A stretch of DNA of 64,000 bases, taken from contig PMZR01000006.1 in the NCBI GenBank assembly GCA_003170135.1, forward strand, positions 1 to 64,000, read 5' to 3'. Positions 1 through 24,800 of this stretch are shown one piece after another. Within the stretch, counting starts at the first letter, position 1. Each line of letters starts with the position of its first letter. The DNA is from Acidobacteriota bacterium. GTDB lineage: Bacteria; Acidobacteriota; Vicinamibacteria; Vicinamibacterales; Fen-181. The notes below the pieces were generated by a model. It made no database searches and was not told where the DNA came from. It was given only the letters and a program-made list of their open reading frames with translations. Position numbers and translations under genes: made by a program.

Positions 1-18
1 GGATGTGACAAAGTCGTA

Positions 19-1884
19 CTAGTCGCTGCCTTCCACGTTAATGGTGAGCTGGCGAGAGCCGCTGACGGCGTAGTCCATCTGGACTTCCCATTCGCCGAGC
101 GCCGCGTCGCGTAGCGGGATGAAACTGCCGCCGTTGCGGTCCCCTTCGAAGATGGCCAGCACCGAGGGCGGGAGGGCCGACAGATACTCGCCACCCACGA
201 CGCCCCCCGCATCCGCGGCGAGCAGCCGGATGTACATCGTGCTGTTCTTGTGCGCGTTGTTCAGCGCCCGGATCATCTGGCTGATGCCGCGCGGCTCGAG
301 CGGCTGGTGCAGCTCGCGCTGCTCCCACTGCGCCAGGCGCGAGCCGTCGGACACGAGGATCGACATCGGGCCGCTCGCGTTGGCGGGAATCGTCACGGGC
401 ACCGTCCGCACGATCTCCTCGCCACGGTAGGTCCGCAGCAGGATCTTCAGCGGGACGGTGTCGCCGGCCCGCGTCCGGACTGTGTCGAGCCACACGCGTT
501 CGACCTTGGCCGTGCGCGGCTGCTCGGTCGTCTTGATCGTCAGGTCCACGTGGTCGATTTCGATGGGCTCGAAGTCGTTCCCCAGCAGGAAAGCCATCGG
601 CGCGACGATGTAGGTGGCGGCCCCGACCGACGGCTGGTCGCCGGTGAAGATGTCCTCGAGCGTCACCGTGTCGTGTTTGCGCACGAACGCCTGGCCCTTG
701 ACGCTGTAGGTCATCGCGCCGAAATCGCGCTCGTAGGAGGACAGCGTGTTCAGGATCGACACGTAGGTGAGCAGCGGCGTGAACAGCTGGTCGTTCACGA
801 TCCGGTAGTGGAACTGCTTGGTCAGGCCGCGCTCGGTTTCGAGCGTCAGGTTCAACGGGATCGTGCGCGGCTGCCGGCCGAGCGTGCCCGCGATGGCGGT
901 CGAGCGATCCTGCGTGAACGTGCCGATGACGTCGCCGGTGGACGAGATCTTCGAGGACGACGACAGGCTGGGGAGCAGCGCATAGACGAACGCCCGCGTC
1001 ATCGGGAACTCGGTGGAGCCCAGGTTGTAGAACGGATGACCGAACGCGAACACCTCGTTCCCGTCCACTTCGGTCACGGTGCCCGTTGCACCGAGCGACA
1101 GATCGCCACCGATCAACTCCACGCCGACCGGGTCGCCCGGTCCTAGCGCCGCCGTCTCCATCTGGCCCGTGGCCGCCATCGTGCCGCCACTCATCGGGAG
1201 GAAGCCGACATCCTTGAACGCGCCGGCGATCGTGTCGGCCACCGACGACTGGAACCCCGACATCACCAACGGCGTCGCAATCGGCGACAGCATCGTGCCG
1301 ACGGCGCCTGCGCCGGCCGGGAGGCCAGCCGAGGGACCCAGCAGCTGCACGTCGTCGGGACGCCCGGCAAACGGGTGAGCCCAGGCAAATGCCGTGCGCA
1401 GGGCCGCTGCCAGGCCTTCGCGCGTGACGGGAAGCTGCAGCCTGGCCTGCGCCACCGCCTGGCGATGGGCGGGCAGCGCGGTCACGTCGCGCATCTCCGC
1501 AATCGGCGTGATGCCCGCGATCGGCTCCTTCGAGAACTGTCCCATCGAGTACGCGACGGCGCCGATCATGCGGTCGTCGATGTAGACCGGACTGCCGCTC
1601 ATGCCGGCGATGACGCCGGTATTGGCCAGCGGCCCGCCTTCCAGCCTCGCCAGGATCAGGTCGCGGCTCGGCCCGGCGACGTTGTGGAGCACCCCGAGGA
1701 TGTGCGCCTTGAACTCCTCGATCTTGGTGCCGTCAAAGACGGTGCGCCCGACGCCGACCATGCCCGGTCGGATCTCGTCAATCGGCATGTACCGGCTCGC
1801 CGCCGGAATCGAGATCGCCAGGCAGGCGACGAACGCGAAGATGGACGCGAAAAACCCGCGAAGATTCATGGAGAGGCTACTCAC
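19..1884 (-). CDS. SpoIVB peptidase S55 domain-containing secreted protein
   Basis: 621 aa ORF with N-terminal signal/TM segment; IRPGMVGVGRTVFDG and GMSGSPVY motifs typical of SpoIVB/S55 family. Confidence 0.85.
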   Translation of the reverse strand: MSSLSMNLRGFFASIFAFVACLAISIPAASRYMPIDEIRPGMVGVGRTVFDGTKIEEFKAHILGVLHNVAGPSRDLILARLEGGPLANTGVIAGMSGSPVYIDDRMIGAVAYSMGQFSKEPIAGITPIAEMRDVTALPAHRQAVAQARLQLPVTREGLAAALRTAFAWAHPFAGRPDDVQLLGPSAGLPAGAGAVGTMLSPIATPLVMSGFQSSVADTIAGAFKDVGFLPMSGGTMAATGQMETAALGPGDPVGVELIGGDLSLGATGTVTEVDGNEVFAFGHPFYNLGSTEFPMTRAFVYALLPSLSSSSKISSTGDVIGTFTQDRSTAIAGTLGRQPRTIPLNLTLETERGLTKQFHYRIVNDQLFTPLLTYVSILNTLSSYERDFGAMTYSVKGQAFVRKHDTVTLEDIFTGDQPSVGAATYIVAPMAFLLGNDFEPIEIDHVDLTIKTTEQPRTAKVERVWLDTVRTRAGDTVPLKILLRTYRGEEIVRTVPVTIPANASGPMSILVSDGSRLAQWEQRELHQPLEPRGISQMIRALNNAHKNSTMYIRLLAADAGGVVGGEYLSALPPSVLAIFEGDRNGGSFIPLRDAALGEWEVQMDYAVSGSRQLTINVEGSD

Positions 1885-1988
1885 ACCGATCCAAGAAGGA
1901 CGGCTTCCAAGGGTGGCAAATTGGTCTGGTCAGATCTCCTTTATAGCGAAAGAAGTGCTTGCGGGTCAAGGAGAAAGGCGGTGTTCGC

Positions 1989-2018
1989 TTGACATCTCAG
2001 GCGCGTGTTTGGTATCGT
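1989..2018 (+). promoter_or_regulatory. Putative sigma70-type promoter for the aromatic operon leader (TTGACA-N18-TATCGT)
   Basis: Perfect -35 TTGACA at 1989-1994, 4/6 -10 TATCGT at 2013-2018, upstream of the leader and divergent from the S55 gene. Confidence 0.55.
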
Positions 2019-2028
2019 CCGATTTCCT

Positions 2029-2181
2029 GTGACTGCAAATCAGAACGTGGCCACTCGCACCCCGAGCCGACCTCTCGCGGACGGCGGATCCGTCCGGACG
2101 AGCGTGGCGCCGGTCGCAGCGGGCGTGCAGTATTGCGGGTATTGGTGGTATTGCAGCCATAGAAGGGGCGGAATGGCCTGA
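2029..2181 (+). CDS. Candidate leader peptide, open from GTG 2029 (50 aa) or GTG 2104 (25 aa: MAPVAAGVQYCGYWWYCSHRRGGMA), with Tyr/Cys/Trp cluster
   Basis: Manual translation: tat tgc ggg tat tgg tgg tat tgc agc cat aga agg ggc gga atg gcc tga; followed by antiterminator/terminator elements. Confidence 0.65.
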   Translation: MTANQNVATRTPSRPLADGGSVRTSVAPVAAGVQYCGYWWYCSHRRGGMA

Positions 2182-2250
2182 TCTCTGGACCAGGCAGCGA
2201 CCACAAAAGCCTCTTCAACCCAGCCGGTTGAAGGGGCTTTTTCATTTTCC
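2162..2250 (+). promoter_or_regulatory. Transcription attenuator: antiterminator arm 2162-2169 competes with terminator arm 2230-2237 for 2209-2216
   Basis: GAAGGGGC occurs at both 2162-2169 and 2230-2237; both pair with GCCTCTTC at 2209-2216. Confidence 0.7.
2208..2248 (+). terminator. Intrinsic terminator of the leader
   Basis: 13-bp stem AGCCTCTTCAACC/GGTTGAAGGGGCT with one G-U pair, 5-nt loop CAGCC, then TTTTTCATTTT. Confidence 0.85.
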
Positions 2251-2287
2251 GGGGTGTTTTGGCTGGCGAGGCGCCCGGGGGCCGCAG

Positions 2288-3706
2288 ATGGGCGATCGAC
2301 TGATCTGTCAGACGGTGACGGCGCGAACCACGGCGGAGCTTCGCGAGCGGCGCGACGCGGCTGCCGGGGTGGATCTGGTCGAACTGCGCCTGGACGGTGT
2401 GGCGGACCCCGACGCTCGCGGCGCCCTGGACGGGCGGCGGCTGCCGGCCATCGTCACGTGCCGGCCGGTTTGGGAGGGGGGCGCGTTCAGCGGGTCGGAA
2501 GAGGAGCGCCACCGCCTGCTCGAGCAGGCTGTCGAGGCCGGGGCCGAGTACGTTGACGTCGAATGGCGCGCCGGATTCCGCGACTCCCTGATTGGGCGCA
2601 CGTCCGGGGCCGGCCTGATCGTGTCGGTGCATGATTTTGCGGGCATCCCGGACGACCTGCTCTCGCTCCATCGCGCCATGCGGCAAACGGGCGCGAGTAT
2701 CTGCAAACTCGCCTTCACGGCCCGGCGGTTGACCGACGTGTTCGCTGCGGACGGGCTCGCCAAGGACGCCGGATCCCGGACTACCGGTCCCGGGCGGGTT
2801 GGGGGAACGGTCGTCATCGCGATGGGGACCGCAGGCATGGCAACGCGCGTGCTGCCCGGGCGGTTCCATTCCCAGTGGACGTATGCGGGCGACTGCGCGC
2901 CGGGCCAGATTCCTGCCGAGCGTCTGCTGACCGAGTTCCGCTTTCGCGAGATTACTCCCGCGACGGCCGTCTACGGCGTGGTCGGGTCGCGCAGCGGCGG
3001 CTCGCGGTCGCCGTCCTTGCACAACGCGGCGTTTCGCGCGGCGGGCGTCGACGCGGTCTACCTCCCCCTCGAGACCGCCGATTTCAGCGACTTCCTCGCA
3101 TTCGCCGATCGCCTGCCGCTGCTGGGCGCGAGCGTGACGATGCCGTTCAAGGAGGTCGCGATGGCGTGCGCCGCGGAGGTTGACGACATCGGCCGCGCGG
3201 TCGGCGCCGTGAACACGTTGCGCCGGGTGAGCGCGGGGTGGAGCGCCACCAACACGGACGTCGATGGCTTTCTCGATCCGATCCGTGACCTCCCGCTGCG
3301 TGGGCGGAGGGTCGCGATCATCGGCGCGGGCGGGGCAGCCAGGGCGGTCGCGGTCGCGGCCGGTCGGTGCGGCGCGCGCGTCTCCGTGTTCGGGCGGCAC
3401 CTGGGCCGCGCCCGTCTCGTCGCCGCTCTCGCGGACGGCGACGCGTTCGAGGGCGTGCCGGGTCGGGGCAGTTGGGATCTGCTCGTCAACGCGACGCCGG
3501 TCGGCGCCTCGCCCGACGTGGACCGGACACCGGTCGACGCGGAGCGGCTGGAGGGCGGGGTCGTCTACGACCTGGTCTACGACCCGCCGGTCACCCGGCT
3601 GATGCGCGAGGCCCGGGCCGCCGGATGCCGCACGGTCGGCGGTCTCGACATGCTGGTCGCGCAGGCGCAGCGCCAGAACGAGTGGTGGACTGGTGCCAGG
3701 TCGTGA
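2288..3706 (+). CDS. aroDE: Bifunctional type I 3-dehydroquinate dehydratase / shikimate dehydrogenase
   Basis: N-terminal AroD-I (CQTVTART, VDLVELRLD, SVHDF) fused to AroE (VVGSRSGGSRSPSLHN, TMPFKE, INTDVDGF-like, GAGGAARA); ATG at 2288 preferred over TTG 2228, which lies inside the terminator. Confidence 0.9.
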   Translation: MGDRLICQTVTARTTAELRERRDAAAGVDLVELRLDGVADPDARGALDGRRLPAIVTCRPVWEGGAFSGSEEERHRLLEQAVEAGAEYVDVEWRAGFRDSLIGRTSGAGLIVSVHDFAGIPDDLLSLHRAMRQTGASICKLAFTARRLTDVFAADGLAKDAGSRTTGPGRVGGTVVIAMGTAGMATRVLPGRFHSQWTYAGDCAPGQIPAERLLTEFRFREITPATAVYGVVGSRSGGSRSPSLHNAAFRAAGVDAVYLPLETADFSDFLAFADRLPLLGASVTMPFKEVAMACAAEVDDIGRAVGAVNTLRRVSAGWSATNTDVDGFLDPIRDLPLRGRRVAIIGAGGAARAVAVAAGRCGARVSVFGRHLGRARLVAALADGDAFEGVPGRGSWDLLVNATPVGASPDVDRTPVDAERLEGGVVYDLVYDPPVTRLMREARAAGCRTVGGLDMLVAQAQRQNEWWTGARS

Positions 3707-3727
3707 AAGAAGTGGCAATTCAAGACC

Positions 3728-3755
3728 TGACCCCAAAACGGTGACCCCAAAACGG
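3728..3755 (+). repeat. Two perfect tandem copies of TGACCCCAAAACGG (14 bp)
   Basis: Direct reading, aroDE-trpE junction. Confidence 0.95.
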
Positions 3756-3764
3756 TGACGAGTA

Positions 3765-5839
<2,075 letters not shown>

Positions 5840-5864
5840 GGCCCACGGGAACAACGGGAGTGAC

Positions 5865-6884
5865 GTGTTCACCGGACTCTTCGAGAAGCTGACGCGGCGC
5901 GAGGACCTGACCGCGGACGAGGCCACCGCGGCGATGGGCGCCATCATGGAAGGGCGCGCGACGCCGGGCCAGGTCGCCGCCCTGCTGATGGGGCTGGCGA
6001 TGAAGGGCGAGCGGCCCGTGGAGATCGTCGGCCTGGCGCGCGCCATGCGCGAGCGCGCCGTCCCGTTCGCCAGGGATCCCGGTGAGGTGATGGATGTGTG
6101 CGGCACGGGAGGCGATCGCGCCGGCACCTTCAACATCTCGTCAGTGGCGGCCCTGGTGGTCTCGGCGGCGGGCGTGCGGGTCGCCAAGCACGGCAACCGG
6201 TCGGTGTCGAGCCGATGCGGAAGCGCCGACGTGTTCGAGGCGCTGGGCGTCCAGACGACGGCGCCGCCGGCGATGGCCGAGCGGTCGCTTCGCGACGCGG
6301 GAATCGCGTTTCTGTTCGCGCCGTCGTTCCACCCCTCGATGCGCCACGCGGCCGGCGTCAGGCGCGAGCTGGGCCTGCGCACGGCGTTCAACCTGCTCGG
6401 GCCGCTGACCAACCCGGCCCGTCCGCAACGCCAGCTCGTGGGTGTGCCGCGGCCGGAGCTGACCGAACTGCTCGCACGGGCGCTGGCGATGCTCGGCTCC
6501 GAGCGGGCGTGGGTGGTCCATGGGGCCGACGGCCTCGACGAGATCTCGACGGCCGGCTACACGAAGGTGTCGGAATGCCGGGACGGCGCGGTGAACACGT
6601 TCTACGTGCATCCCCTCGACGTCGGCCTGCCGAAGGCGGCGCGCGCGGCGCTCGTCGGTGGCGATGCCGCCGAGAATGCGGTCATGGTCCGCGACATCCT
6701 CGACGCGCAGCCGGGGCCGCGCCGCGACGTCGTCGTGCTGAACGCGGGAGCGGCCTTGCTCATCGCGGGGCGGGCGGGCGATCTTCGCGAAGGGATCGCC
6801 ATGGCCGCGGCGGCGTTGGACGACGGGCGAGCGGCCGCGACGCTCGAGGCGATGGTCCGGGCGTCGCACGCGACGGCGGATTGA
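5865..6884 (+). CDS. trpD: Anthranilate phosphoribosyltransferase
   Basis: DVCGTGGDRAGTFNISS, KHGNRSVSSRCGSAD, NLLGPLTNPA; GTG start proposed at 5865 in the 5823 ORF. Confidence 0.95.
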   Translation: MFTGLFEKLTRREDLTADEATAAMGAIMEGRATPGQVAALLMGLAMKGERPVEIVGLARAMRERAVPFARDPGEVMDVCGTGGDRAGTFNISSVAALVVSAAGVRVAKHGNRSVSSRCGSADVFEALGVQTTAPPAMAERSLRDAGIAFLFAPSFHPSMRHAAGVRRELGLRTAFNLLGPLTNPARPQRQLVGVPRPELTELLARALAMLGSERAWVVHGADGLDEISTAGYTKVSECRDGAVNTFYVHPLDVGLPKAARAALVGGDAAENAVMVRDILDAQPGPRRDVVVLNAGAALLIAGRAGDLREGIAMAAAALDDGRAAATLEAMVRASHATAD

Positions 6885-6916
6885 ACATCAAGCGGAGCGA
6901 GCTTGGGGCGCAGAGC

Positions 6917-6951
6917 GGACTCCGGACACCGGACTCCGGACTCCGGACACC
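6917..6951 (+). repeat. 5 x 7-bp array GGACTCC/GGACACC
   Basis: Direct reading of the trpD-trpC gap. Confidence 0.95.
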
Positions 6952-6961
6952 GTGAACCACC

Positions 6962-7750
6962 ATGTCCAGTGACCTTCTCGATCGGATCGTTTCGGCGACG
7001 CGGGTGACGCTCGAGGAGCGGCGGCAGACGCGGCCGTTCGCCCAGGTCGAGCGAGACGCCGCCCGGTGCACGCCGCGGTCCGCCGAGTTTCGCGCGGCGC
7101 TCGGGCGCACCGGGACCGTCAACGTGATCGCGGAGTGCAAGCGCCGATCGCCGCTCAAGGGCTTGCTGTGCGCCGACTACGCTGTCGTCGATCTCGCGCG
7201 CTCGTACGAAGCCGCCGGCGCGGCCGCCATCTCGGTCTTGACGGAGCCGTCGTTTTTCGACGGCGCCCTGGCGCATCTGGCCGACGTGCGCGCGGAGGTC
7301 GGCTTGCCGCTCCTTCGCAAGGACTTCATCGTCGACGAGTACCAGATCGCGGAGACGCGCGCGGCGGGTGCCGATGCCATTCTTCTCATCGTCGCGATTC
7401 TCGGAACGCGCACGGAAGCGTTCCTGAGGAAGGCGGAAGACGCGGGTTTGGCCGCACTGGTCGAGGTGCACGACGAGGCGGACCTGCACGTGGCGCGCGA
7501 CGCGGGCGCGTCCATCGTCGGCGTCAACAGCCGCGATCTGCGGACGATGACCGTGAGGCCCGAGACGTGTGGTGAACTGGCGGCTCGCATGCCACCGAAC
7601 GTCACGGCGGTGGCGGAAAGCGGCATTCGTACAGCGGACGATCTTGGGCGACTGCGGGCGCTCGGCTACTCGGCCTTCCTGGTCGGCGAGCGCCTCGTGC
7701 GCGCCGCCGACCCTGGCCAGGCGTTGCGGGAACTGACGGTATGCACGTAA
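6962..7750 (+). CDS. trpC: Indole-3-glycerol phosphate synthase
   Basis: IAECKRRSPLKG, VLTEPSFFDG, LRKDFIVDEYQI motifs. Confidence 0.96.
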   Translation: MSSDLLDRIVSATRVTLEERRQTRPFAQVERDAARCTPRSAEFRAALGRTGTVNVIAECKRRSPLKGLLCADYAVVDLARSYEAAGAAAISVLTEPSFFDGALAHLADVRAEVGLPLLRKDFIVDEYQIAETRAAGADAILLIVAILGTRTEAFLRKAEDAGLAALVEVHDEADLHVARDAGASIVGVNSRDLRTMTVRPETCGELAARMPPNVTAVAESGIRTADDLGRLRALGYSAFLVGERLVRAADPGQALRELTVCT

Positions 7751-8367
7751 AGATCTGCGGCATCACCCGCGCGGACGATGCGCAGCTGGCCGCCGAGCTC
7801 GGCGCCACGGCCCTGGGATTTGTCCTCTGGCCCGGCAGCCCGCGCGAGGTCGATCCGTTCCGTGCCCGGACCATCGTCCGGCATCTGCCGCCGCTCGTGT
7901 CGGTGGTCGGCGTGTTCGTCGATCAGCCGATCGAGTACGTGCGGCGCGTCGCGCGCCTGGTGCCGCTCGACGCGGTGCAGCTCCATGGCGGCGAATCGGC
8001 CGATTACTGCCGGAACGCCGGCTTGCGCGTGATCAAGGCCGTCGGCGTCGGGGGAACGGCGGCCGAGGAGATCGACCGGCTGCCTTGCGACGTGGTGATC
8101 CTGCTCGATGCCTGCGACCCGGTGCAGCATGGCGGCACCGGCCGTGCGATCGATTGGACGGCAGCCGCGCGCATCGCGCGGCAGCGGCCGACGATTCTCG
8201 CCGGCGGCCTGCGTGCCGAGAACGTCGCGGAGGCCGTCAGGCGTGTGCGCCCGTTCGGCATCGATGTGTCATCGGGTGTCGAAGCGAGGCCGGGGGTGAA
8301 AGATCCGAACCGGCTGCGCGATTTCTTCCGGGCGTTGCGCGATTGCGACGGCGGCTGGGGCACGTAG
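7741..8367 (+). CDS. trpF: Phosphoribosylanthranilate isomerase
   Basis: KICGIT start, VVGVFVD, VQLHG, FGIDVSSGVE; overlaps trpC. Confidence 0.96.
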   Translation: MHVKICGITRADDAQLAAELGATALGFVLWPGSPREVDPFRARTIVRHLPPLVSVVGVFVDQPIEYVRRVARLVPLDAVQLHGGESADYCRNAGLRVIKAVGVGGTAAEEIDRLPCDVVILLDACDPVQHGGTGRAIDWTAAARIARQRPTILAGGLRAENVAEAVRRVRPFGIDVSSGVEARPGVKDPNRLRDFFRALRDCDGGWGT

Positions 8368-8391
8368 GGCAAACCGCAAGACGAGGTGGCG

Positions 8392-9663
8392 ATGAAGGCA
8401 GCGATTGAGTTCGGCCGCCGTGATCCGGATGCGCGCGGCTACTACGGCGTTTACGGCGGGCGGTTCGTGCCCGAGACACTGATGGCGCCGGTCGAGGAGC
8501 TCGAGACGGCGTATTTCGCGGCCCGCCAGGATGAGGCGTTCGGGCGCGAGCTCGACGGGTTGCTTCGCGACTATGCGGGCCGGCCGACGCCGCTGTTCGA
8601 GGCGACGCGGCTGTCGGCGCACGCGGGCGGCGCGCGGATCTTTCTCAAGCGCGAAGACCTCGCGCACACCGGCGCCCACAAGATCAACAACGCGCTCGGA
8701 CAGGCGCTGCTCGCCCGGCGAATGGGGAAGCGGCGCGTCATTGCCGAGACCGGTGCCGGACAACACGGCGTCGCCACCGCCACCGCCTGTGCGCTCCTCG
8801 ACCTGCAATGCGAGGTCTACATGGGCGCCTCCGACATGGAACGCCAGGCCCTGAACGTCGTCCGGATGCAGATGCTCGGGGCGACGGTGCGGCGGGTGGA
8901 CGGCGGATCGCGAACGCTCAAGGACGCGATCAACGAAGCCCTGCGCGACTGGGTTGCCAATGTCGGGGACACCTACTATCTGCTGGGGTCCGTGCTCGGT
9001 CCGCATCCGTACCCGCTGATGGTCCGCGAGTTCCAATCGGTGATCGGACTCGAAGCGCGGGACCAGTTCCTTCGGAAGACCGGGCGGCTGCCCGACATCG
9101 TGGTTGCGTGCGTTGGCGGCGGCAGCAACGCCCTGGGGATCTTCGATGCGTTCGTCGGCGACCGCGACGTTCGACTGACCGGCGTCGAGGCCGGCGGGGA
9201 AGGCATCAGGCCCGGCTGCCATGCCGCGCGTTTTGCGGGCGGGACGCTGGGGGTGCTGCAGGGGACGCGTACCTACGTGCTGCAGGATGAGGCGGGGAAC
9301 ATCGAACAGACACATTCGATTTCCGCGGGGCTCGACTATGCGGCGGTCGGGCCCGAGCACGCATGGCTGCGCGATCTCGGCCGTGCGGAGTATGCGTGGG
9401 TCTCGGACGCCGAGGCCGTCGAGGCGTTTCATCTGCTCGCCCGCCTCGAGGGGATTCTGCCTGCGCTCGAGTCGGCGCACGCCATCGCCCTTGGCCATCG
9501 CCTGGCGGCTCGGATGGATCGGCATCAACTGGTCCTCGTCAACCTGTCTGGGCGTGGCGACAAAGACGTGCAGGCGCTCGCGGCGATGCCGCACGCCGGC
9601 GAGACGGGCGATCGGACCACGTCGCGGCGCGGCCAGCCGCGCGATTTCGCGGAGGAACGCTGA
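8392..9663 (+). CDS. trpB: Tryptophan synthase beta chain
   Basis: [48 protein letters not shown]. Confidence 0.97.
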
Positions 9664-9664
9664 C

Positions 9665-10465
9665 GTGTCACGCCTCGAGTCCACGTTCGGCCGGCTCAGA
9701 GCCGACCATCGCACGGGCCTGGTGACCTATGTCACGGCCGGCGATCCCGACCTCCAACGGTCCGCCGAGATCCTGCTGGCGCTCGATGCGGCAGGTGTCG
9801 ATGTCCTGGAGGTCGGCGTGCCGTTCTCCGACCCGGTGGCCGACGGCCCGGTCATCCAGCGAGCGTCGGAGCGGGCGCTCCGGCAGGGGATGACGCTCGT
9901 AGGCGTGCTCCAGATGATTGCGGACCTGCGCGCGAAGCTGGCGGCGCCGGTCGTTCTCTTCAGTTACGTGAACCCGATCCTGCGCATGGGAGTCGATCCG
10001 TTTGCGCGCGCGGCGGCCGCGGCGGGCGTCGATGGCGTGCTGGCGCTGGACCTGCCGGCCGACGAGGCCGGTGAGCTGCGTGACCGTCTGGGCGAGGAGG
10101 GGGTGGACACGATCTTCGTGCTCAGCCCGACGAGCACCGTGGGGCGGATTGCGCGGGCCGCCGCCCTCGGTCGCGGCTTCCTGTACGGCGTCTCGCGCCT
10201 GGGCGTCACCGGCGCCCGCGCGCAGCTCGCGGAGGCGGCGCGGCCCCTGGTGGAACGGATCCGGGCGGTGAGCGCGTTGCCCGTGGCGGTTGGCTTCGGC
10301 GTCTCGCGGCCCGAGCACGTCCGCGAGATTGGCACGTTCGCGGACGCCGCCGTGGTCGGAAGCGCGCTGGTCAGCGTGGTCGAGGAAGCAGCCGGGCGCG
10401 ACGATCTGGCAGCCCGCGTGTCGGAGCGGGCGCGATGGTTGATGGGGTCGGCGGTCAACGGTTAA
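9665..10465 (+). CDS. trpA: Tryptophan synthase alpha chain
   Basis: LVTYVTAGDPD, LEVGVPFSDPVADGPVIQ; GTG start just after trpB stop. Confidence 0.95.
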   Translation: MSRLESTFGRLRADHRTGLVTYVTAGDPDLQRSAEILLALDAAGVDVLEVGVPFSDPVADGPVIQRASERALRQGMTLVGVLQMIADLRAKLAAPVVLFSYVNPILRMGVDPFARAAAAAGVDGVLALDLPADEAGELRDRLGEEGVDTIFVLSPTSTVGRIARAAALGRGFLYGVSRLGVTGARAQLAEAARPLVERIRAVSALPVAVGFGVSRPEHVREIGTFADAAVVGSALVSVVEEAAGRDDLAARVSERARWLMGSAVNG

Positions 10466-10490
10466 CGGTCAACGGTTAACGGTCAACGGT
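10453..10490 (+). repeat. 5 x 7-bp array GGTYAAC (+GGT), overlapping the trpA stop codon
   Basis: ggtcaac ggttaac ggtcaac ggttaac ggtcaac ggt. Confidence 0.95.
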
Positions 10491-10511
10491 TCCGCGTGAG
10501 GAGGTCTGGCG

Positions 10512-10826
10512 GTGATGACCCTCGGGGACTGGCGGGCAAAGGTCGACGAGATCGACGCCGCCATCGTGCGCCTGTTGAACGATCGGGCGGCGTGCGCGGT
10601 GGCGATTGGCCACCTCAAGCAGCAGGAGCACGTGGCGGTGTACCAGCCGGAGCGCGAGCGCGAGGTGATCGAGCGCGTCCGTGCGCTGACCGTCGCGAGT
10701 GGCGGCCCGCTCGGGCCCGGCGCGATGGCGCGCCTGTTCGAGCGAATCATCGACGAGGCGCGGGGCCTGGAGATTGCGCGGGTGTCGGACAGGGACCAAG
10801 ACGAGCACAACGGAAATGCCAGGTGA
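10512..10826 (+). CDS. aroQ: Chorismate mutase (AroQ class)
   Basis: RAKVDEIDAAIVRLLNDRAACAVAIGHLK; downstream of trpA. Confidence 0.88.
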   Translation: MMTLGDWRAKVDEIDAAIVRLLNDRAACAVAIGHLKQQEHVAVYQPEREREVIERVRALTVASGGPLGPGAMARLFERIIDEARGLEIARVSDRDQDEHNGNAR

Positions 10827-10842
10827 AGACGGGGAGACTGAC

Positions 10843-11892
10843 GTGGTCATCGTGATGGAGCAGAAGGCGACCGAAGCACAGATCGAGGTGGTTATCGGCC
10901 ATCTCGTGCGTCTCGGGTTCGACGTGCACCGATCGACCGGGAGCGAGCGGACCGTTCTCGGCGCCGTCGGCAGCGGGCACGTCGACGACCCGGGCGTGCT
11001 CGCGGTGCTCGAGGGCGTGCACGAGGTGGTCCGTATCAGCGAACCGTACAAACTGGCCAGTCGCGCCTTCAAGCCGGGGGGCACCGTGGTGGCGCTCGGG
11101 GAGGTGCGCATCGGCGGTGACGAAGTCATCGTCATCGCGGGGCCGTGCTCGGCGGAGACCGAAGAGCAGGTCTTCCAGACGGCGGCCGCGGTGAAACGCG
11201 CCGGCGCGAAGATCCTCCGGGGCGGGGCGTTCAAGCCGCGCAGCTCGCCCTACAGTTTCCAGGGGCTCGGCGAGAAGGGGCTGCAGATGCTGCGGTCGGC
11301 GGCCAACGAACAGAACCTGAAGCTCGTGTCGGAGGTGATGGACGTCGCGCAGATCGAGCTGGTCGATCGCTACGCGGACATGCTGCAGGTGGGCGCGCGC
11401 AACATGCAGAACTTCTCGCTGTTGCGGGAACTGGGAAAGACGCGCAAACCGATCTTGCTGAAGCGCGGCATTTCGGCGACCATCGAGGAGTGGCTGCTGT
11501 CGGCCGAGTACATCCTCGGCGGCGGCAACCCCGACGTGGTGCTGTGCGAACGGGGCATCCGCACGTTCGAGAACTACACGCGCAACACGCTCGACCTGTG
11601 CGCGATCCCGGTGGTGAAGAAGCTGAGTCACCTGCCGATCATCGTGGACCCGAGCCACGGCACCGGCCGGCGCGACAAGGTGGCGCCGATGGCGCGGGCG
11701 GCGGTGGCGGCGGGGGCGGACGGCCTGATCATCGAGGTGCACACGGACCCGGACCGGGCGCTCAGCGACGGCGCGCAGTCGCTCATCCCGTCGCAGTTCG
11801 ATCAGCTGATGGCCGAACTGCGCATCATCGCCCCGGCCATCGGCCGCGGCATCTGCGTGGAGCCGGTGGCGCGCCGCGGTTGGGCGGTCTGA
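10843..11892 (+). CDS. aroF: 3-deoxy-7-phosphoheptulonate synthase with N-terminal ferredoxin-like domain
   Basis: [49 protein letters not shown] start inferred. Confidence 0.93.
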
Positions 11893-11901
11893 GCGTCACG
11901 G

Positions 11902-11929
11902 AGTCCGAAGTCCGAGGTCCGAAGTCCGA
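11902..11929 (+). repeat. 4 x 7-bp array RGTCCGA ending at the tyrA start codon
   Basis: agtccga agtccga ggtccga agtccga. Confidence 0.95.
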
Positions 11930-11930
11930 T

Positions 11931-12944
11931 ATGAGCGCAGACCAACGCTTCCTTCCGATCCTCCGGCCCGGCCTGGACGCGAGCCTCAGCCCGCCGGTCT
12001 TCGAGCGCATCGGCATCGTCGGCCTCGGGCTGATCGGGGGGTCGATCGCGCTGGCGGCCAGGCAGGCATGGCCGTCGGGGCTCGTCATCGGCGTCGACAC
12101 CAACGAGGTCCTCGAGCAGGCGGTCGCCCGCCACGTCATCGATGTTGCGGCGAGCGATCTGACCATCGTCAGCGAAGCCGACCTCGTGATCCTGGCCGCC
12201 CCGGTCGACGCCAACCTGGCGCTGCTGGCACGCCTGCCCGACTACCTCGAACGCCCGGTCATCGTCACCGACACCGGCAGCACCAAGCGCGCGATCGTGG
12301 CAGCCGCCTCCGCGCTGCCTGCGCGCCTCACCTTTGTTGGCGGTCACCCGCTCGGTGGCTCCACCCGGAGCGGAATCGAAGCGGCGCGAGCCGATCTGTT
12401 CGCGGGACGGCCCTGGCTGTTCACGCCTGAGCGGGCGGTCACAGACCCGGGCCCGGCAGCTGGCGATCCGGGCGCGGTAGCCGTGGATGCGGCGGCTATG
12501 CGTCTGGCGGCGCGAGCATCGCGCGAGGGCGCCACCGGGCGCGCGGGCGAGGCCATGGCCCGGCTGTTCCAGTTCGCGGAAGGCCTCGGGGCCGTGCCGC
12601 ACACGATCGACGCTCGCGAGCACGATCACCTGCTCGCGTTCATCAGCCACCTGCCCCAGTTGGCCGCCAGCGCGCTGATGCAGATTGTCGGCGACGCGGC
12701 CGGCGAGGACGGCCTCCGGTTGTCGGGGCGCGGTCTCCAGGACACGACGCGGCTGGCGGGCAGCCCGGCCGGTATCTGGACGGAGATCTGTGCGAGCAAT
12801 GCCGACGAGATCCGCGCCGCGATCGACGCGCTGGTCGGCGCCCTCCAGCAGTTGCGCGACCACGTCGCCGAACGGGACACGATCGAGCGATTGTTCGAGG
12901 CCGCCCGGAACTGGCGCGCGGTGCTGGTCGACAAGCAGGCGTGA
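11931..12944 (+). CDS. tyrA: Prephenate dehydrogenase
   Basis: IGIVGLGLIGGSIALAAR Rossmann, TDTGSTK, GGHPLGGSTRSGIEAA, HDHLLAFISHLPQL. Confidence 0.92.
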   Translation: MSADQRFLPILRPGLDASLSPPVFERIGIVGLGLIGGSIALAARQAWPSGLVIGVDTNEVLEQAVARHVIDVAASDLTIVSEADLVILAAPVDANLALLARLPDYLERPVIVTDTGSTKRAIVAAASALPARLTFVGGHPLGGSTRSGIEAARADLFAGRPWLFTPERAVTDPGPAAGDPGAVAVDAAAMRLAARASREGATGRAGEAMARLFQFAEGLGAVPHTIDAREHDHLLAFISHLPQLAASALMQIVGDAAGEDGLRLSGRGLQDTTRLAGSPAGIWTEICASNADEIRAAIDALVGALQQLRDHVAERDTIERLFEAARNWRAVLVDKQA

Positions 12945-13035
12945 CGCCTCCGCCATCCCTTCCATGCGCCAATCGGTGACGCCGCACCTTGACATGCAGC
13001 CCGCCTGTGGCCTGATCATGGGCTGAGGACGTGTG

Positions 13036-13737
13036 ATGAACAAAGCGCTCACGACCGCCGCCGAAGCGGTCTCATCGATTCCCGACGGCGCCACCATCAT
13101 GATGGGCGGGTTCGGCCTGTGCGGGATTCCCGAGAACCTCATTGCGGCGTTGCGGGAGCGCGGCACCCGCGATCTCACCATCATCAGCAACAATGCCGGC
13201 ATCGACGATTTCGGCCTCGGTGTCCTCCTCAAGGCGCACCAGATTCGGAAGATGATTTCCACCTACGTCGGCGAGAACAAGGAGTTCGAGCGCCAGTGCA
13301 TCACCGGTGAACTGGATCTCGAACTCGTGCCGCAGGGGACGTTCGCCGAGCGCATCCGCGCGGGCGGCGCGGGCATCGGCGGGTTCTTCACGCCGACCGG
13401 CTACGGCACGGTGGTGGCCGAGGGGAAGGAGACGCGCGTGATCGACGGGCGTCCGTTCGTGCTCGAGCTGCCGCTCAAGGCGGACTTCGCGTTCGTGAAG
13501 GCGCAGCGCGGCGACACGCTGGGCAACCTCGTGTACCGGAAGACGGCCCGCAACTTCAACCCGATGATGGCGACCGCGGCGAAGGTGACGATCGCCGAGG
13601 TCGAGGAACTCGTGGAGCCGGGCGAGCTCGATCCGAACGGCATCGTCACGCCGGGGATCTTCGTGCGATACATCCTGCGGGGAGCGCGATACGAGAAGCG
13701 CATCGAGCGCCGGACCGTCCTCGCGGCCGGCCGATGA
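13036..13737 (+). CDS. scoA: 3-oxoacid CoA-transferase subunit A
   Basis: [34 protein letters not shown] motifs. Confidence 0.9.
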
Positions 13738-14423
13738 GCCGTGAGGCAGGCGGGCCGTCACTGAAGGAGCGCGGAGTGGACAAACGCGATCGGATCGTTC
13801 GCCGGGTGGCCCGTGAACTGAGGGACGGCGACTACGTGAACCTCGGCATCGGCATGCCGACGCTGGTCGCCAACCAGGTCCCGCCCGGCATTCACATCAC
13901 GCTGCACTCGGAGAACGGCATGCTCGGCGTCGGGCCGTACCCGCGCGACGCCGATGTCGATCCGGACCTGATCAACGCGGGGAAGGAAACGATCAGCGAG
14001 ACGCGCGGCTGCTGCTACTTCAACAGCGCCGACTCGTTTGCGATGGTGCGCGGCGGGCACATCGACCTGACCGTTCTCGGCGCTTTGCAGGTGGACGAGC
14101 AGGGCAATCTCGCGAACTGGATGATTCCCGGGAAGATGGTGAAGGGCATGGGCGGCGCGATGGACCTGGTGGCGGGCGCCAAGCGCGTCGTGGTGGCGAT
14201 GGAGCACACGACCAAGGAGGGCGAGCCGAAGATCCTCCACGCCTGCACGCTGCCGCTCACGGGTCGCAGCGTGGTCCATCGCATCATCACCGACCTGGCG
14301 GTCATCGACGTGACGAGGCGCGGCCTCCTGCTTTGCGAGATCGCGGAAGACACCACGCTCGATCAGGTGAGGGCGGCGACCGAAGCTGGCCTGATTGTCG
14401 AAGACCCGCTGGCGGTGTTCTAA
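13734..14423 (+). CDS. scoB: 3-oxoacid CoA-transferase subunit B
   Basis: [31 protein letters not shown]; follows subunit A. Confidence 0.9.
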
Positions 14424-14501
14424 ACGCGTGCTCACTTGGTTGGCGCGGCAACGCCTGCTCAAGTACCCCGGGACCGGGGGCGGCAACGATTGGCGACGTG
14501 C

Positions 14502-14957
14502 ATGACTGACGCGGATGACCTGGCGACAAAGGGATCGGGCGCCGGGCCGCGCGTGGAGGTCCGGCGAACGGTGCTCGAGGCGCTGGTCGCGCATGCCCGG
14601 GAGGAAGCGCCGACCGAGTGCTGCGGCCTGCTCGTCGGCAGGGCCGGTCGAATCGAGCGCGCCGTGCGTGCCCGCAACACGCTCGACAGCCCAACCCGGT
14701 ACCTCATCGATCCCGCCGACCAGATTGCCGCGACGAGGAGCGCACGAGAGAACGGCGAAGCGGTTGTGGGCTTCTATCACTCGCACCCCGCGTCCTCGCC
14801 GACCCCGTCGGCAACCGATCGAGCCGAGGCCGCTTACCCGGGCCACTGGTACCTGATCGTCTCGCCCGGCAGTGCCTCCGCCGATGCCGAGGTCCGCGGG
14901 TTCCGACTGTGCGATTCCGGGAACTTCCTGCCGGTCACACTCGTCCCAATTGCGTGA
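14502..14957 (+). CDS. JAMM/Mov34 MPN metallopeptidase family protein
   Basis: PTECCGLLVG, VGFYHSHPASSPTPSATD (JAMM H-x-H...S..D). Confidence 0.85.
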   Translation: MTDADDLATKGSGAGPRVEVRRTVLEALVAHAREEAPTECCGLLVGRAGRIERAVRARNTLDSPTRYLIDPADQIAATRSARENGEAVVGFYHSHPASSPTPSATDRAEAAYPGHWYLIVSPGSASADAEVRGFRLCDSGNFLPVTLVPIA

Positions 14958-16137
14958 ATGGTGTCTGAACGCCCGCGCGCGCTCACCCTTGCGCTGTTTC
15001 TCGCCGTGATCGCGGGCTCGATCTTTGTCGCGGCCGGGCAGCCGGGCGTCTCGCCGGCCCTCGCGGGCCATCCACACCTCGCACGCCAGGATCCGTCACG
15101 CCAGGACGCGCAGGCACGACCATCTGTGCCGGCGGCGCCGTTGAAGCACGTTGTCGTCAACGGCGCTCGCTACTTCACCGAGCGCGACATCGCGGCTTTC
15201 CTGAAGCTGCAGATTGACGCGCCGCTGCCGGCGCCGCCCGCGACGCTCGGCGAGGATCTGCGCCGGCGGTACGTCGATGCCGGGTACTCATTCGCCCAGG
15301 TGGCGGCGCGCTTCCACGAGACCGACGGCCACCTGGTCGTCGACGTGGACGAGGGCCGCATCGACGCGATCGAGTTCTCCGGTGTCTCGAGCCGCCTGGG
15401 CGACGAGTTCTCGAAGGACTTTGCGCTGCAGCCGGGTGACGTCTTCCGGCGCACGGAGGCGACGGGCGCGCTTCGCGTGCTGCTGCGGCCCACGCAGGGC
15501 GCCGTGCGCGCCACCGAGCCGGTTGCCACGGCGTTCGACATGATCGAGCGGAACGGCAAGCGCGTCCTCGTGGTGCATCTCGCGACGCGTCGCAGTGATT
15601 TCAACCTGGCGGCCGGCACCGGAAATCGCGAGGACTGGTTCAACCCGGTCGATGGCTTCGCGCCGGCCGTCGGCTTCAACGAAACGATCTTCGATAGCGG
15701 CGTCCGGAGCGCTGGGCGGGGACTACGACTACCGCCGGCACGTGCTCGACGTTCGACGCTACACCCGCTTGTCGCCGCGTCAGACGCTGAACCTGCGCGC
15801 CATCGCCGGCATCGGCGAAGGCACCCTCCCGCCGCAGCGACTGCTGTCGATCGGCGGCTTTGGCACCGTGCCGGGCTACGACTTCAAGCAGGAGAACGGC
15901 GGGCGCATGGTGTTCTTCGATGCCGAGTACGGGTACCGTCTGAGCCGCCACATCCGCCCGCTGCTGCTCTACGATGCCGGACGGGTGTTCCGGCCGCTCC
16001 CGCTGTCGGGTGACGAGTGGCTGCAGGCGTTCGGCACGGGCCTCGATCTGGGCGACGGGTTCCGCATCGAAGCGTTCTGGCCTCTCGATCGCAGTCGCCC
16101 GGCGGAGATTCTCATCAGGCTGCGGCCGGCATTCTAG
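14958..16137 (+). pseudogene. POTRA/BamA-TamA-like outer membrane protein, apparently frameshifted and possibly internally deleted near 15690-15730
   Basis: First frame 14958-~15710 has signal peptide and POTRA-like text ending FNETIFDSGVRS; a second frame continues GGDYDYRRHVLDVRRYTRLSPRQTLNLRAIAG...IRLRPAF*. Confidence 0.65.
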
Positions 16138-22865: not shown

Positions 22866-24800
22866 TCACTGGTGGGCGACGACGCTGGCGCTTTTCAGGG
22901 CGCGCCTGTAGCGCAGGATCGCGTCGGCGAGCGCTTCCGCGATGCGTTGGCGATACGCGTCGCCCCGCAGCAGCTGTCCTTCGCGGCGGTTCGTCACGAA
23001 CGACACCTCGGCGAGCACACTGGGCATCGCCGCGCCGATGAGCACGACGAACGGCGCCTGCTTGACGCCCAGGTCCTTGAGCGTCTTGTTGCTGGGCCGG
23101 AGCATCCGGCCGAGCGCCTGCTGCACCAGCTTCGCGAAGTCCTTCGACTCGTCCAGCTTGTTGTTCAGCGCGATGGCCTTCACGATGTCCGGCAGGTTGT
23201 TCATGGTCCGCTCGGAGGCGCCGTTCTCGCGGGCGGCGACGGCTTCGGCCTCCGGGTTGGACGCGAAGTTCAGGTAGTAGCTCTCGATGCCGCGCGCGTT
23301 CTGGTTGCGGCTGGCGTTGGCGTGGATCGACAGAAAGAGATCGGCCTGCTCGCGGTTCGCGATCTCGGTGCGCTGCTCGAGCGGCACGAAGACATCGGTG
23401 CGCCGCGTGAGCACCACATCGACGCCCGGCTGTCGCGTCAGCAGCTTCTCGAGGCGAAGCGCGATGTCGAGGACAATCTGCGATTCGTTGATGTTCGGTC
23501 CTTCCGCGCCCGGGTCCCGTCCGCCGTGACCGGGATCGATGACGATGCGTGAAACCCCCAGGCCGAGCTGCCGCGCCATCGACACGCGGCCGCCCTCCGC
23601 CGGGAGGGTCTTTTCGCCGCGCCGCAGCCGCGGCGGATCGGTTGTCGCAGGTTCGCTCGACGCGCTGCGGCCGTCGTCGGTCTTCTTCTGCCGTGCCAGG
23701 TCGGTGCCGGCCGGTTCTGACGCCGCCTTCTTGTCCGCGCCTGTCGTGGCAGGGCGAACGGGGTTGGTGCCGGCCGTGTCGGCCGGACTGGGCCGTGCGG
23801 GCGTGGCGTCCTCGACCGGCGTCTTCGTGGTGGCGTGCCCGGCCGGCCTGGTGGGTTCGGCGGGGGCTGTCGCCCGTTGCGGGCCGGCCGCGCGTTCGCA
23901 ATCGATCAGGATACGGTAAGGGTTGTAGAGCGTGACCACCGTGTAGCGGCTGACGCCCTCCAGATCGAGGACGACCCGCGTCGTCTGGTTCAGGTGCCGT
24001 CCCACGCGAATGCGGCGCACGATGTCGTCCTGGTAGGTCCAGTTCGCGTCCTGCAACGACGGCGCGGCTTTCGTGGCCGGCAGGTCGAACAGCAGGCGGG
24101 CCGGGCCCTCCACCCGTTCTTCGTGGAATGCGACTTCGCGATCGAGTTCGATCGAGACGCGGACCACTTCGGCGAGCACCGTCCGCTTGATCGCGCCGAT
24201 CGTCGACAGCGAGGCCGGGGCTGGCAGCGCCGGCGGGGAAGTCGGGGCGCCCACCGTACGGGCGGGCGTCGGCTCGGCGGACAACTCGCGGCCACGGTTC
24301 GACGGTTCGGCGCGCACGGCCGGCGTCGGCGCGCCGGCCGCCGTCGCATTCTGGAGCCGGCCCGACCGCTCGACGGCTTTCTTGACGAACGGACTGGTGG
24401 GATATTCGCGCGCGAGGAATTCGAACAGGCGAACGGCTGTCAGGCGGTCCGGACCCTGCTGCCAGCGGGCGAACGCATCGGCGGCGAGACCGGCCGCCTG
24501 CCAGAGTGCGTTGTCGCAGTATCCACTGGTCGGATAGCGGCGGACGATCGCTTCATACGCCGCCACGATCGCGCGCGTGTCCCTGAGCGTGGTCACCGGT
24601 GCCGTCGCCGGAGCCGCAGCGGGGTTCGCGGTGAGACGAGCTTCGTCGTCCCATGCAGCCCGCAGGGCCTGCTCGCGCGCCATCGCCGCGCCGTACAACT
24701 CCCTGGCGGGCGTCGCTGCGCCGGCAGAGGCTGCGCCGCAAAGGAGCAGCGCCACCAGAGCGCCGATCGGCCACGCCGGCACACACCTGTTGAATGTCAT
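22866..24800 (-). CDS. N-acetylmuramoyl-L-alanine amidase with AMIN-like domain
   Basis: IVIDPGHGGRDPGAEG, VVLTRRTD, SIHANAS; AMIN-like YTVVTLYNPYRILID. Confidence 0.92.
   Translation of the reverse strand: MTFNRCVPAWPIGALVALLLCGAASAGAATPARELYGAAMAREQALRAAWDDEARLTANPAAAPATAPVTTLRDTRAIVAAYEAIVRRYPTSGYCDNALWQAAGLAADAFARWQQGPDRLTAVRLFEFLAREYPTSPFVKKAVERSGRLQNATAAGAPTPAVRAEPSNRGRELSAEPTPARTVGAPTSPPALPAPASLSTIGAIKRTVLAEVVRVSIELDREVAFHEERVEGPARLLFDLPATKAAPSLQDANWTYQDDIVRRIRVGRHLNQTTRVVLDLEGVSRYTVVTLYNPYRILIDCERAAGPQRATAPAEPTRPAGHATTKTPVEDATPARPSPADTAGTNPVRPATTGADKKAASEPAGTDLARQKKTDDGRSASSEPATTDPPRLRRGEKTLPAEGGRVSMARQLGLGVSRIVIDPGHGGRDPGAEGPNINESQIVLDIALRLEKLLTRQPGVDVVLTRRTDVFVPLEQRTEIANREQADLFLSIHANASRNQNARGIESYYLNFASNPEAEAVAARENGASERTMNNLPDIVKAIALNNKLDESKDFAKLVQQALGRMLRPSNKTLKDLGVKQAPFVVLIGAAMPSVLAEVSFVTNRREGQLLRGDAYRQRIAEALADAILRYRRALKSASVVAHQ

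Follow-up and report, generated by a model that had tools for sequence, protein, structure and literature searches.

The stretch of 64,000 nucleotides analysed here (the window) very likely carries a ribosome-mediated transcription attenuator of an aroDE-trp-aroQ-aroF-tyrA supraoperon, judging from its sequence and from that of its relatives. A leader ORF with clustered control codons and an intrinsic terminator lie between an upstream promoter and the first gene, an antiterminator that excludes the terminator shares the terminator's 5' arm, and the spacing would let a ribosome either free or mask the segment that we term arm 2. The parts, all on the plus strand, are as follows:

1989 to 2018, sigma-70-type promoter: TTGACA at 1989-1994, an 18-nt spacer ending in TGG, and TATCGT at 2013-2018
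2029 to 2181, leader ORF: GTG start, 50 codons, TGA at 2179-2181; peptide VTANQNVATRTPSRPLADGGSVRTSVAPVAAGVQYCGYWWYCSHRRGGMA
2104 and 2125, alternative GTG starts of the leader ORF
2131 to 2151, control codons Tyr-Cys-Gly-Tyr-Trp-Trp-Tyr: core of the enrichment, with a sharp edge 12 nt before arm 2
2162 to 2169, arm 2, the antiterminator 5' arm, GAAGGGGC: within the leader ORF, pairs with arm 3
2205 to 2220, arm 3: core GCCTCTTC at 2209-2216, common to antiterminator and terminator
2226 to 2241, arm 4, the terminator 3' arm: GAAGGGGC at 2230-2237, running into a T tract at 2238-2242
2288 to 3706, aroDE, first gene of the operon: 3-dehydroquinate dehydratase-shikimate dehydrogenase fusion (Pfam DHquinase_I, Shikimate_dh_N)
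3765 to 10465, trp genes (Pfam), with starts at 3765 (trpE), 5246 (trpG), about 5823-5850 (trpD), 6962 (trpC), 7741 (trpF) and 8392 (trpB), and trpA from about 9665 to 10465
10512 to 10826, aroQ, chorismate mutase (Pfam CM_2)
10855 to 11892, aroF, DAHP synthase (Pfam DAHP_synth_1)
11931 to 12944, tyrA, prephenate dehydrogenase (Pfam PDH_N)

The operon behind the leader, aroDE-trpEGDCFBA-aroQ-aroF-tyrA, comprises 11 genes of tryptophan and tyrosine synthesis, and the order trpE-trpG-trpD-trpC-trpF-trpB-trpA is the same in relatives. The leader peptide ends in ...QYCGYWWYCSHRRGGMA and contains the residues YCGYWWYC, encoded by TAT TGC GGG TAT TGG TGG TAT TGC at 2131-2154, with Trp codons at 2143 and 2146 and the last Tyr codon at 2149. 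Coordinates assigned in the initial annotation to TGG TGG (2143-2148), the TGA (2179-2181), GCCTCTTC (2209-2216) and the two copies of GAAGGGGC, one 13 nt past the Trp codons at 2162-2169 and the other at 2230-2237, agree with the sequence. The terminator described there as 13 bp was placed correctly but is longer: its stem has 16 bp (2205-2220 with 2226-2241), of which 13 remain when the outer A-T pairs are left out, and is capped by a 5-nt loop and followed by T's. Within positions 1-16000 of the window this is the strongest terminator-like site and the promoter at 1989-2018 is the only sigma-70-like match on either strand. The RNA of 2090-2260 folds with an energy 2.9 sd below that of shuffles. 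The control codons also form a 9-nt periodic repeat at 2128-2156 (GTATTGCGG GTATTGGTG GTATTGCAG), and are predicted to fold into a GU-rich hairpin; neither repeat nor hairpin was seen in relatives. Upstream of the leader lies a divergent gene (19-1884, minus strand) with a SpoIVB peptidase S55 domain, and a similar reverse-strand gene is also found upstream of a leaderless aroDE at locus L004.

Transcription is predicted to start at about 2025, in agreement with the initial proposal of a start upstream of 2100, where a conserved promoter was indeed found. In 118 of 125 fetched loci a promoter above the cut-off occupies the same place, with TTGAC present in 113. GTG 2029 sits 10 nt past the -10 box, and translation of the window leader probably begins at this codon, on a near-leaderless mRNA, since the predicted distance from promoter to start favours it both in the window and in the 118 loci. 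Among these 118 relatives with a clear promoter, for which transcription starts were likewise predicted, 42% had their first in-frame start codon 3-6 nt from that predicted position, versus 11% in shuffles. The predicted 5'UTR had a median of 6 nt and was at most 6 nt in 60 of the 118, and 10 of the 118 had a Shine-Dalgarno-like motif. GTG 2104, which had been put forward as the start giving a better leader length, is possible, but promoter geometry and relatives speak for 2029.

We collected acidobacterial aroDE loci. In most of them aroDE is closely preceded by an ORF rich in Trp and Tyr codons, a GAAGRGGC arm and a terminator, and 25 served to build a covariance model. The model matched 147 of 162 genomes of the Vicinamibacterales but only two, weakly, of 31 other genomes of the same class, and in a sample of 396 genomes of the phylum 41 of the 44 matches fell within this order. 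Of 127 fetched copies, 125 were located directly upstream of aroDE; of the other two, one is truncated at a contig end and the other, in genome G006, directly precedes trpE. In the sister orders of the class, no leader with tandem Trp codons and a T tract was found within 600 nt of trpE (23 loci). A leader of the same layout, with arm 2 inside the ORF, preceded trpE at 11 of 27 loci of a second acidobacterial class (L283, L289, L290, L291 and L293-L299), where the arms are different, of GGAGGTGG/CCACCTCC type, and the control codons mostly Trp only. Thus, one attenuator appears to have been kept through an order of Acidobacteriota, with a parallel version in a second class. Two further loci were observed. 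At L242 (G427:C137, about 24449-24544, minus strand), from another acidobacterial class, the leader MRPEPRSRAVAVFAASWWWYRRVSGGRVAC with arms CCGGAGGGC/GCCCTCCGG sits upstream of a TrpB2-like gene. At L251 (G508:C125, near 27373), a TTGACA-type promoter is followed by a leader-like ORF with the end VVVVVPVVVIISGEVGAP and then by a terminator-like hairpin, a similar layout in which the ORF is probably a leader for branched-chain amino acids.

The tandem Trp codons, the Tyr codons and all three arms of the initial proposal are kept in relatives, and compensatory changes were detected in both helices. We aligned 76 dereplicated leaders with a model that did not contain the pairing of arms 2 and 3 (2:3). 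The 2:3 helix was nonetheless paired in 90.8% of cells, versus 42-64% when slid, with 21 double-change cells versus 8.8 in shuffles, none of 500 shuffles reaching 21. The terminator helix (3:4) was paired in 97.5% of cells, and its 55 double-change cells, spread over eight pairs, compared with 13.7 in shuffles, a count again reached in none of 500. Of the 14 sequences in which C replaces T in arm 3 (column 164), 13 have G in arm 2. Arm 2 was read in all three phases among relatives (66, 6 and 3 leaders), which points to a constraint on the RNA and not on the peptide. All 118 leaders tested formed 2:3 when folding was restricted to the RNA that a stalled ribosome would leave free, with arm 4 still to be made. 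For a ribosome at the stop codon, the RNA left free in the window folded as the terminator, at -25.2 kcal/mol.

Spacing offers a further line of evidence. Over the 76 leaders, Trp and Tyr codons occupy the 12-27 nt upstream of arm 2, with Trp reaching 71% and Tyr 46% of codons at one position, and are nearly gone closer than 12 nt; Trp falls from 28% of codons at 12-14 nt to 1% at 9-11 nt and to none at 0-8 nt. In the window, the last Tyr codon is 13 nt and the Trp codons are 16 and 19 nt from arm 2. The stop codon lies at a median of 18 nt past the first base of arm 2. A ribosome whose A site is 12-13 nt upstream of arm 2 ends just before it, and one at the stop codon covers it. Both distances in these predicted leaders, from codons to arm 2 and from stop to arm 2, match the ribosome footprint, and the 12-nt edge makes this footprint readable from sequence alone.

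The composition of the leaders bears on which amino acids they may sense. Of 80 dereplicated leaders, 78 had two or more Trp codons among their last 26, and core enrichment over the operon's own proteins was 39-fold for Trp, 8-fold for Tyr and 2.3-fold for Cys, with none for Phe. In the 80 leaders, all with decidable linkage to tyrA, Tyr was present in the last 26 codons of 75 of 78 tyrA-linked leaders (the others being those of G082, G086 and G182) versus neither of the unlinked ones, which number just two and are thus a small sample (Fisher p = 0.003, a value that overstates independence owing to the kinship of lineages). One unlinked operon, in G144, consists of aroDE-trp only, and no tyrA was detected in that genome. 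In the other genome, G006, the supraoperon is split: trpEGDCFBA follows a leader ending SSSWWWRNSIH, without Tyr, aroQ-aroF-tyrA on another contig has its own copy of the attenuator terminator, its leader codons being lost at the contig end, and a third piece holds aroDE-tyrA without a leader (the loci being L313, G006:C377, L322, G006:C413, and L323, G006:C478); this bin has 5% contamination, and some of its contigs are possibly foreign. The proposal that the Tyr codons fit an operon holding tyrA is thus supported by their absence where tyrA lies outside the operon. Support from the second class is mixed: where tyrA was found over the cut-off it was always on another contig and six of six such leaders lacked Tyr, and where no tyrA was matched three of four genomes had Tyr in the leader. 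Because leader codons vary with operon content, comparison among genomes can test which amino acids a leader responds to.

We also considered Cys and Phe. The Cys codons, left unexplained in the initial annotation, probably carry no signal and look incidental: enrichment in the core is slight, the Cys codon at 2152 would lie within the footprint, 10 nt from arm 2, and TGC is one base from both TGG and TAC, so that drift is enough to account for it. Phe was enriched 2-fold in the N-terminal part and not in the core, and entered the core in some lineages only (WWWFFYF, WFWFIYF). In four genomes with Phe in the core (G149, G153, G154 and G155) pheA (PF00800) is on another contig, hence operon content gives Phe sensing no support. 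Prephenate dehydratase (PF00800) had no match in the window's genome (G000), which is rated 100% complete.

Taken as an attenuator, the element would work as follows. Transcription would begin at about 2025 and a ribosome would load almost at once on the near-leaderless GTG 2029. With charged tRNA-Trp or tRNA-Tyr in short supply, the ribosome would stall at the TAT and TGG codons of 2131-2151, its leading edge halting just short of arm 2, which could then pair with arm 3 (2162-2169 with 2209-2216), leaving arm 4 without a partner and allowing RNA polymerase to read into aroDE. With both amino acids ample, the ribosome would reach the stop codon and cover arm 2, leaving arm 3 to pair with arm 4 as the terminator. 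Stalling, termination, the response to Tyr and default read-through of an untranslated leader are what we infer from the arrangement of the parts. More tentatively, the element may be a multi-amino-acid aromatic attenuator with codons that evolve with the genes of the operon (Trp in every case, Tyr where tyrA is present and Phe in certain lineages) and with three segments only, on by default when untranslated, near-leaderless loading replacing the pause and protector hairpin of E. coli; to this fuller version we give slightly less than an even chance.

Two rival readings retain attenuation and alter its details. In a classical attenuator that senses Trp only, the Tyr codons would be cheap neighbours or reflect local RNA constraints. 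The near universality of Trp, its greater enrichment and the mostly Trp-only leaders of this type before trpE in the second class agree with such a reading; however, Tyr makes up 46% of codons at 15-17 nt before arm 2, within the sensing window, and is missing from the order's two leaders of operons without tyrA, and we regard sensing of Trp alone as unlikely. Somewhat less likely again is a full four-segment attenuator of E. coli type, in which a protector helix between an upstream segment and arm 2 (1:2) would bring about termination when the leader is untranslated. Leaders of the order as a whole are weakly enriched in upstream sequence complementary to arm 2 (p = 0.026 against a reversed-arm control), and in some relatives a patch resembling GCCCCTTC is found upstream; a protector may exist in some lineages. 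In the window, by contrast, the best upstream partner of arm 2 scores only as well as shuffles do (48th percentile), no stable helix is possible between the UGG codons and GAAGGGGC, and the untranslated RNA already folds into 2:3 ahead of the synthesis of arm 4. Of the E. coli trp leader logic originally invoked, attenuation is supported and the 1:2 helix is not evident in the window. Lacking this helix, an untranslated leader should read through, and the basal state of the window's element, as far as its sequence indicates, either differs from that of E. coli or needs another component.

Two other explanations were weighed. The leader peptide or the short RNA, once released, might also act in trans, as is reported of peTrpL and rnTrpL of S. 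meliloti (PMC7298713), and a predicted near-leaderless small mRNA of similar layout is in keeping with this; yet the order shows little conservation of the peptide's N-terminal part or of its length (22-51 aa), and we see only a slim chance of such a role. That the element is just a plain terminator, serving for instance to insulate against transcription from upstream, beside a fortuitous small ORF is hardly credible: a stem this strong followed by a T tract would terminate in any case, but the conserved Trp and Tyr codons, the covarying arm 2, the codon spacing and the tracking of operon content would all be left unexplained, and the upstream gene, being divergent, leaves little to insulate.

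In agreement with the initial annotation, in which no description of this exact leader was known, Rfam RF00513 (Trp_leader) gave no match, whether at the gathering threshold or with E relaxed to 10, and weak matches to ctRNA and PyrG_leader reflect the hairpin only, no attenuator family being matched at a meaningful score. The open-access literature, to which the search was confined, subscription papers being outside its scope, contained no description of a trp attenuator in Acidobacteria or of a mixed Trp/Tyr leader. Naville and Gautheret (2010) observed that the predicted attenuators of Acidobacteria were almost all without an assigned function, and that, until their own case in Firmicutes, they knew of amino acid leader peptides in Proteobacteria and Actinobacteria only (PMC2965389).

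By their logic, the nearest known systems are trp attenuators, namely those of enterobacteria, S. meliloti and Actinobacteria. Like E. coli trpL, the element has a leader ORF with tandem Trp codons, competing 2:3 and 3:4 helices and a proposed coupling of ribosome position to folding. Unlike trpL, it has arm 2 inside the ORF, between the Trp codons and the stop, mixes Tyr with Trp codons, has a predicted near-leaderless start and, in the window, lacks a 1:2 protector, and it would control an aro-trp-tyr supraoperon; the predicted read-through of an untranslated leader is the opposite of E. coli behaviour. Codons for several amino acids made by the operon are found in the enterobacterial thr (Thr/Ile) and ilv (Ile/Val/Leu) leaders, and here a single leader would likewise serve several amino acids, aromatic ones in this case. 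The aromatic supraoperon of B. subtilis also unites aro, trp and tyr genes under attenuation, exerted there by the Trp-binding protein TRAP and here, as we propose, by leader translation, which would place the whole aromatic pathway under one leader. In Sinorhizobium meliloti, the trpL/rnTrpL RNA is leaderless, its first bases being the start codon of the leader, and ribosomes stall at Trp codons (PMC7298713). The present element, with its transcription start predicted within a few nt of the leader start codon, may be a trp attenuator of this leaderless type; the S. meliloti leader has a 14-aa peptide, responds to Trp only and precedes trpE(G), whereas that of the window has a 50-codon ORF before an 11-gene aromatic operon. 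The trp attenuators of Corynebacterium and Streptomyces combine double or triple UGG leaders, a GC-rich terminator and shared complementary triples (PMC1262725). They belong to another phylum, have Trp codons only and precede the trp operon only, and their triples, gGCC-rGCy-GGCC, differ in sequence from the GAAGRGGC-GCCYCTTC-GAAGRGGC of the element described here.
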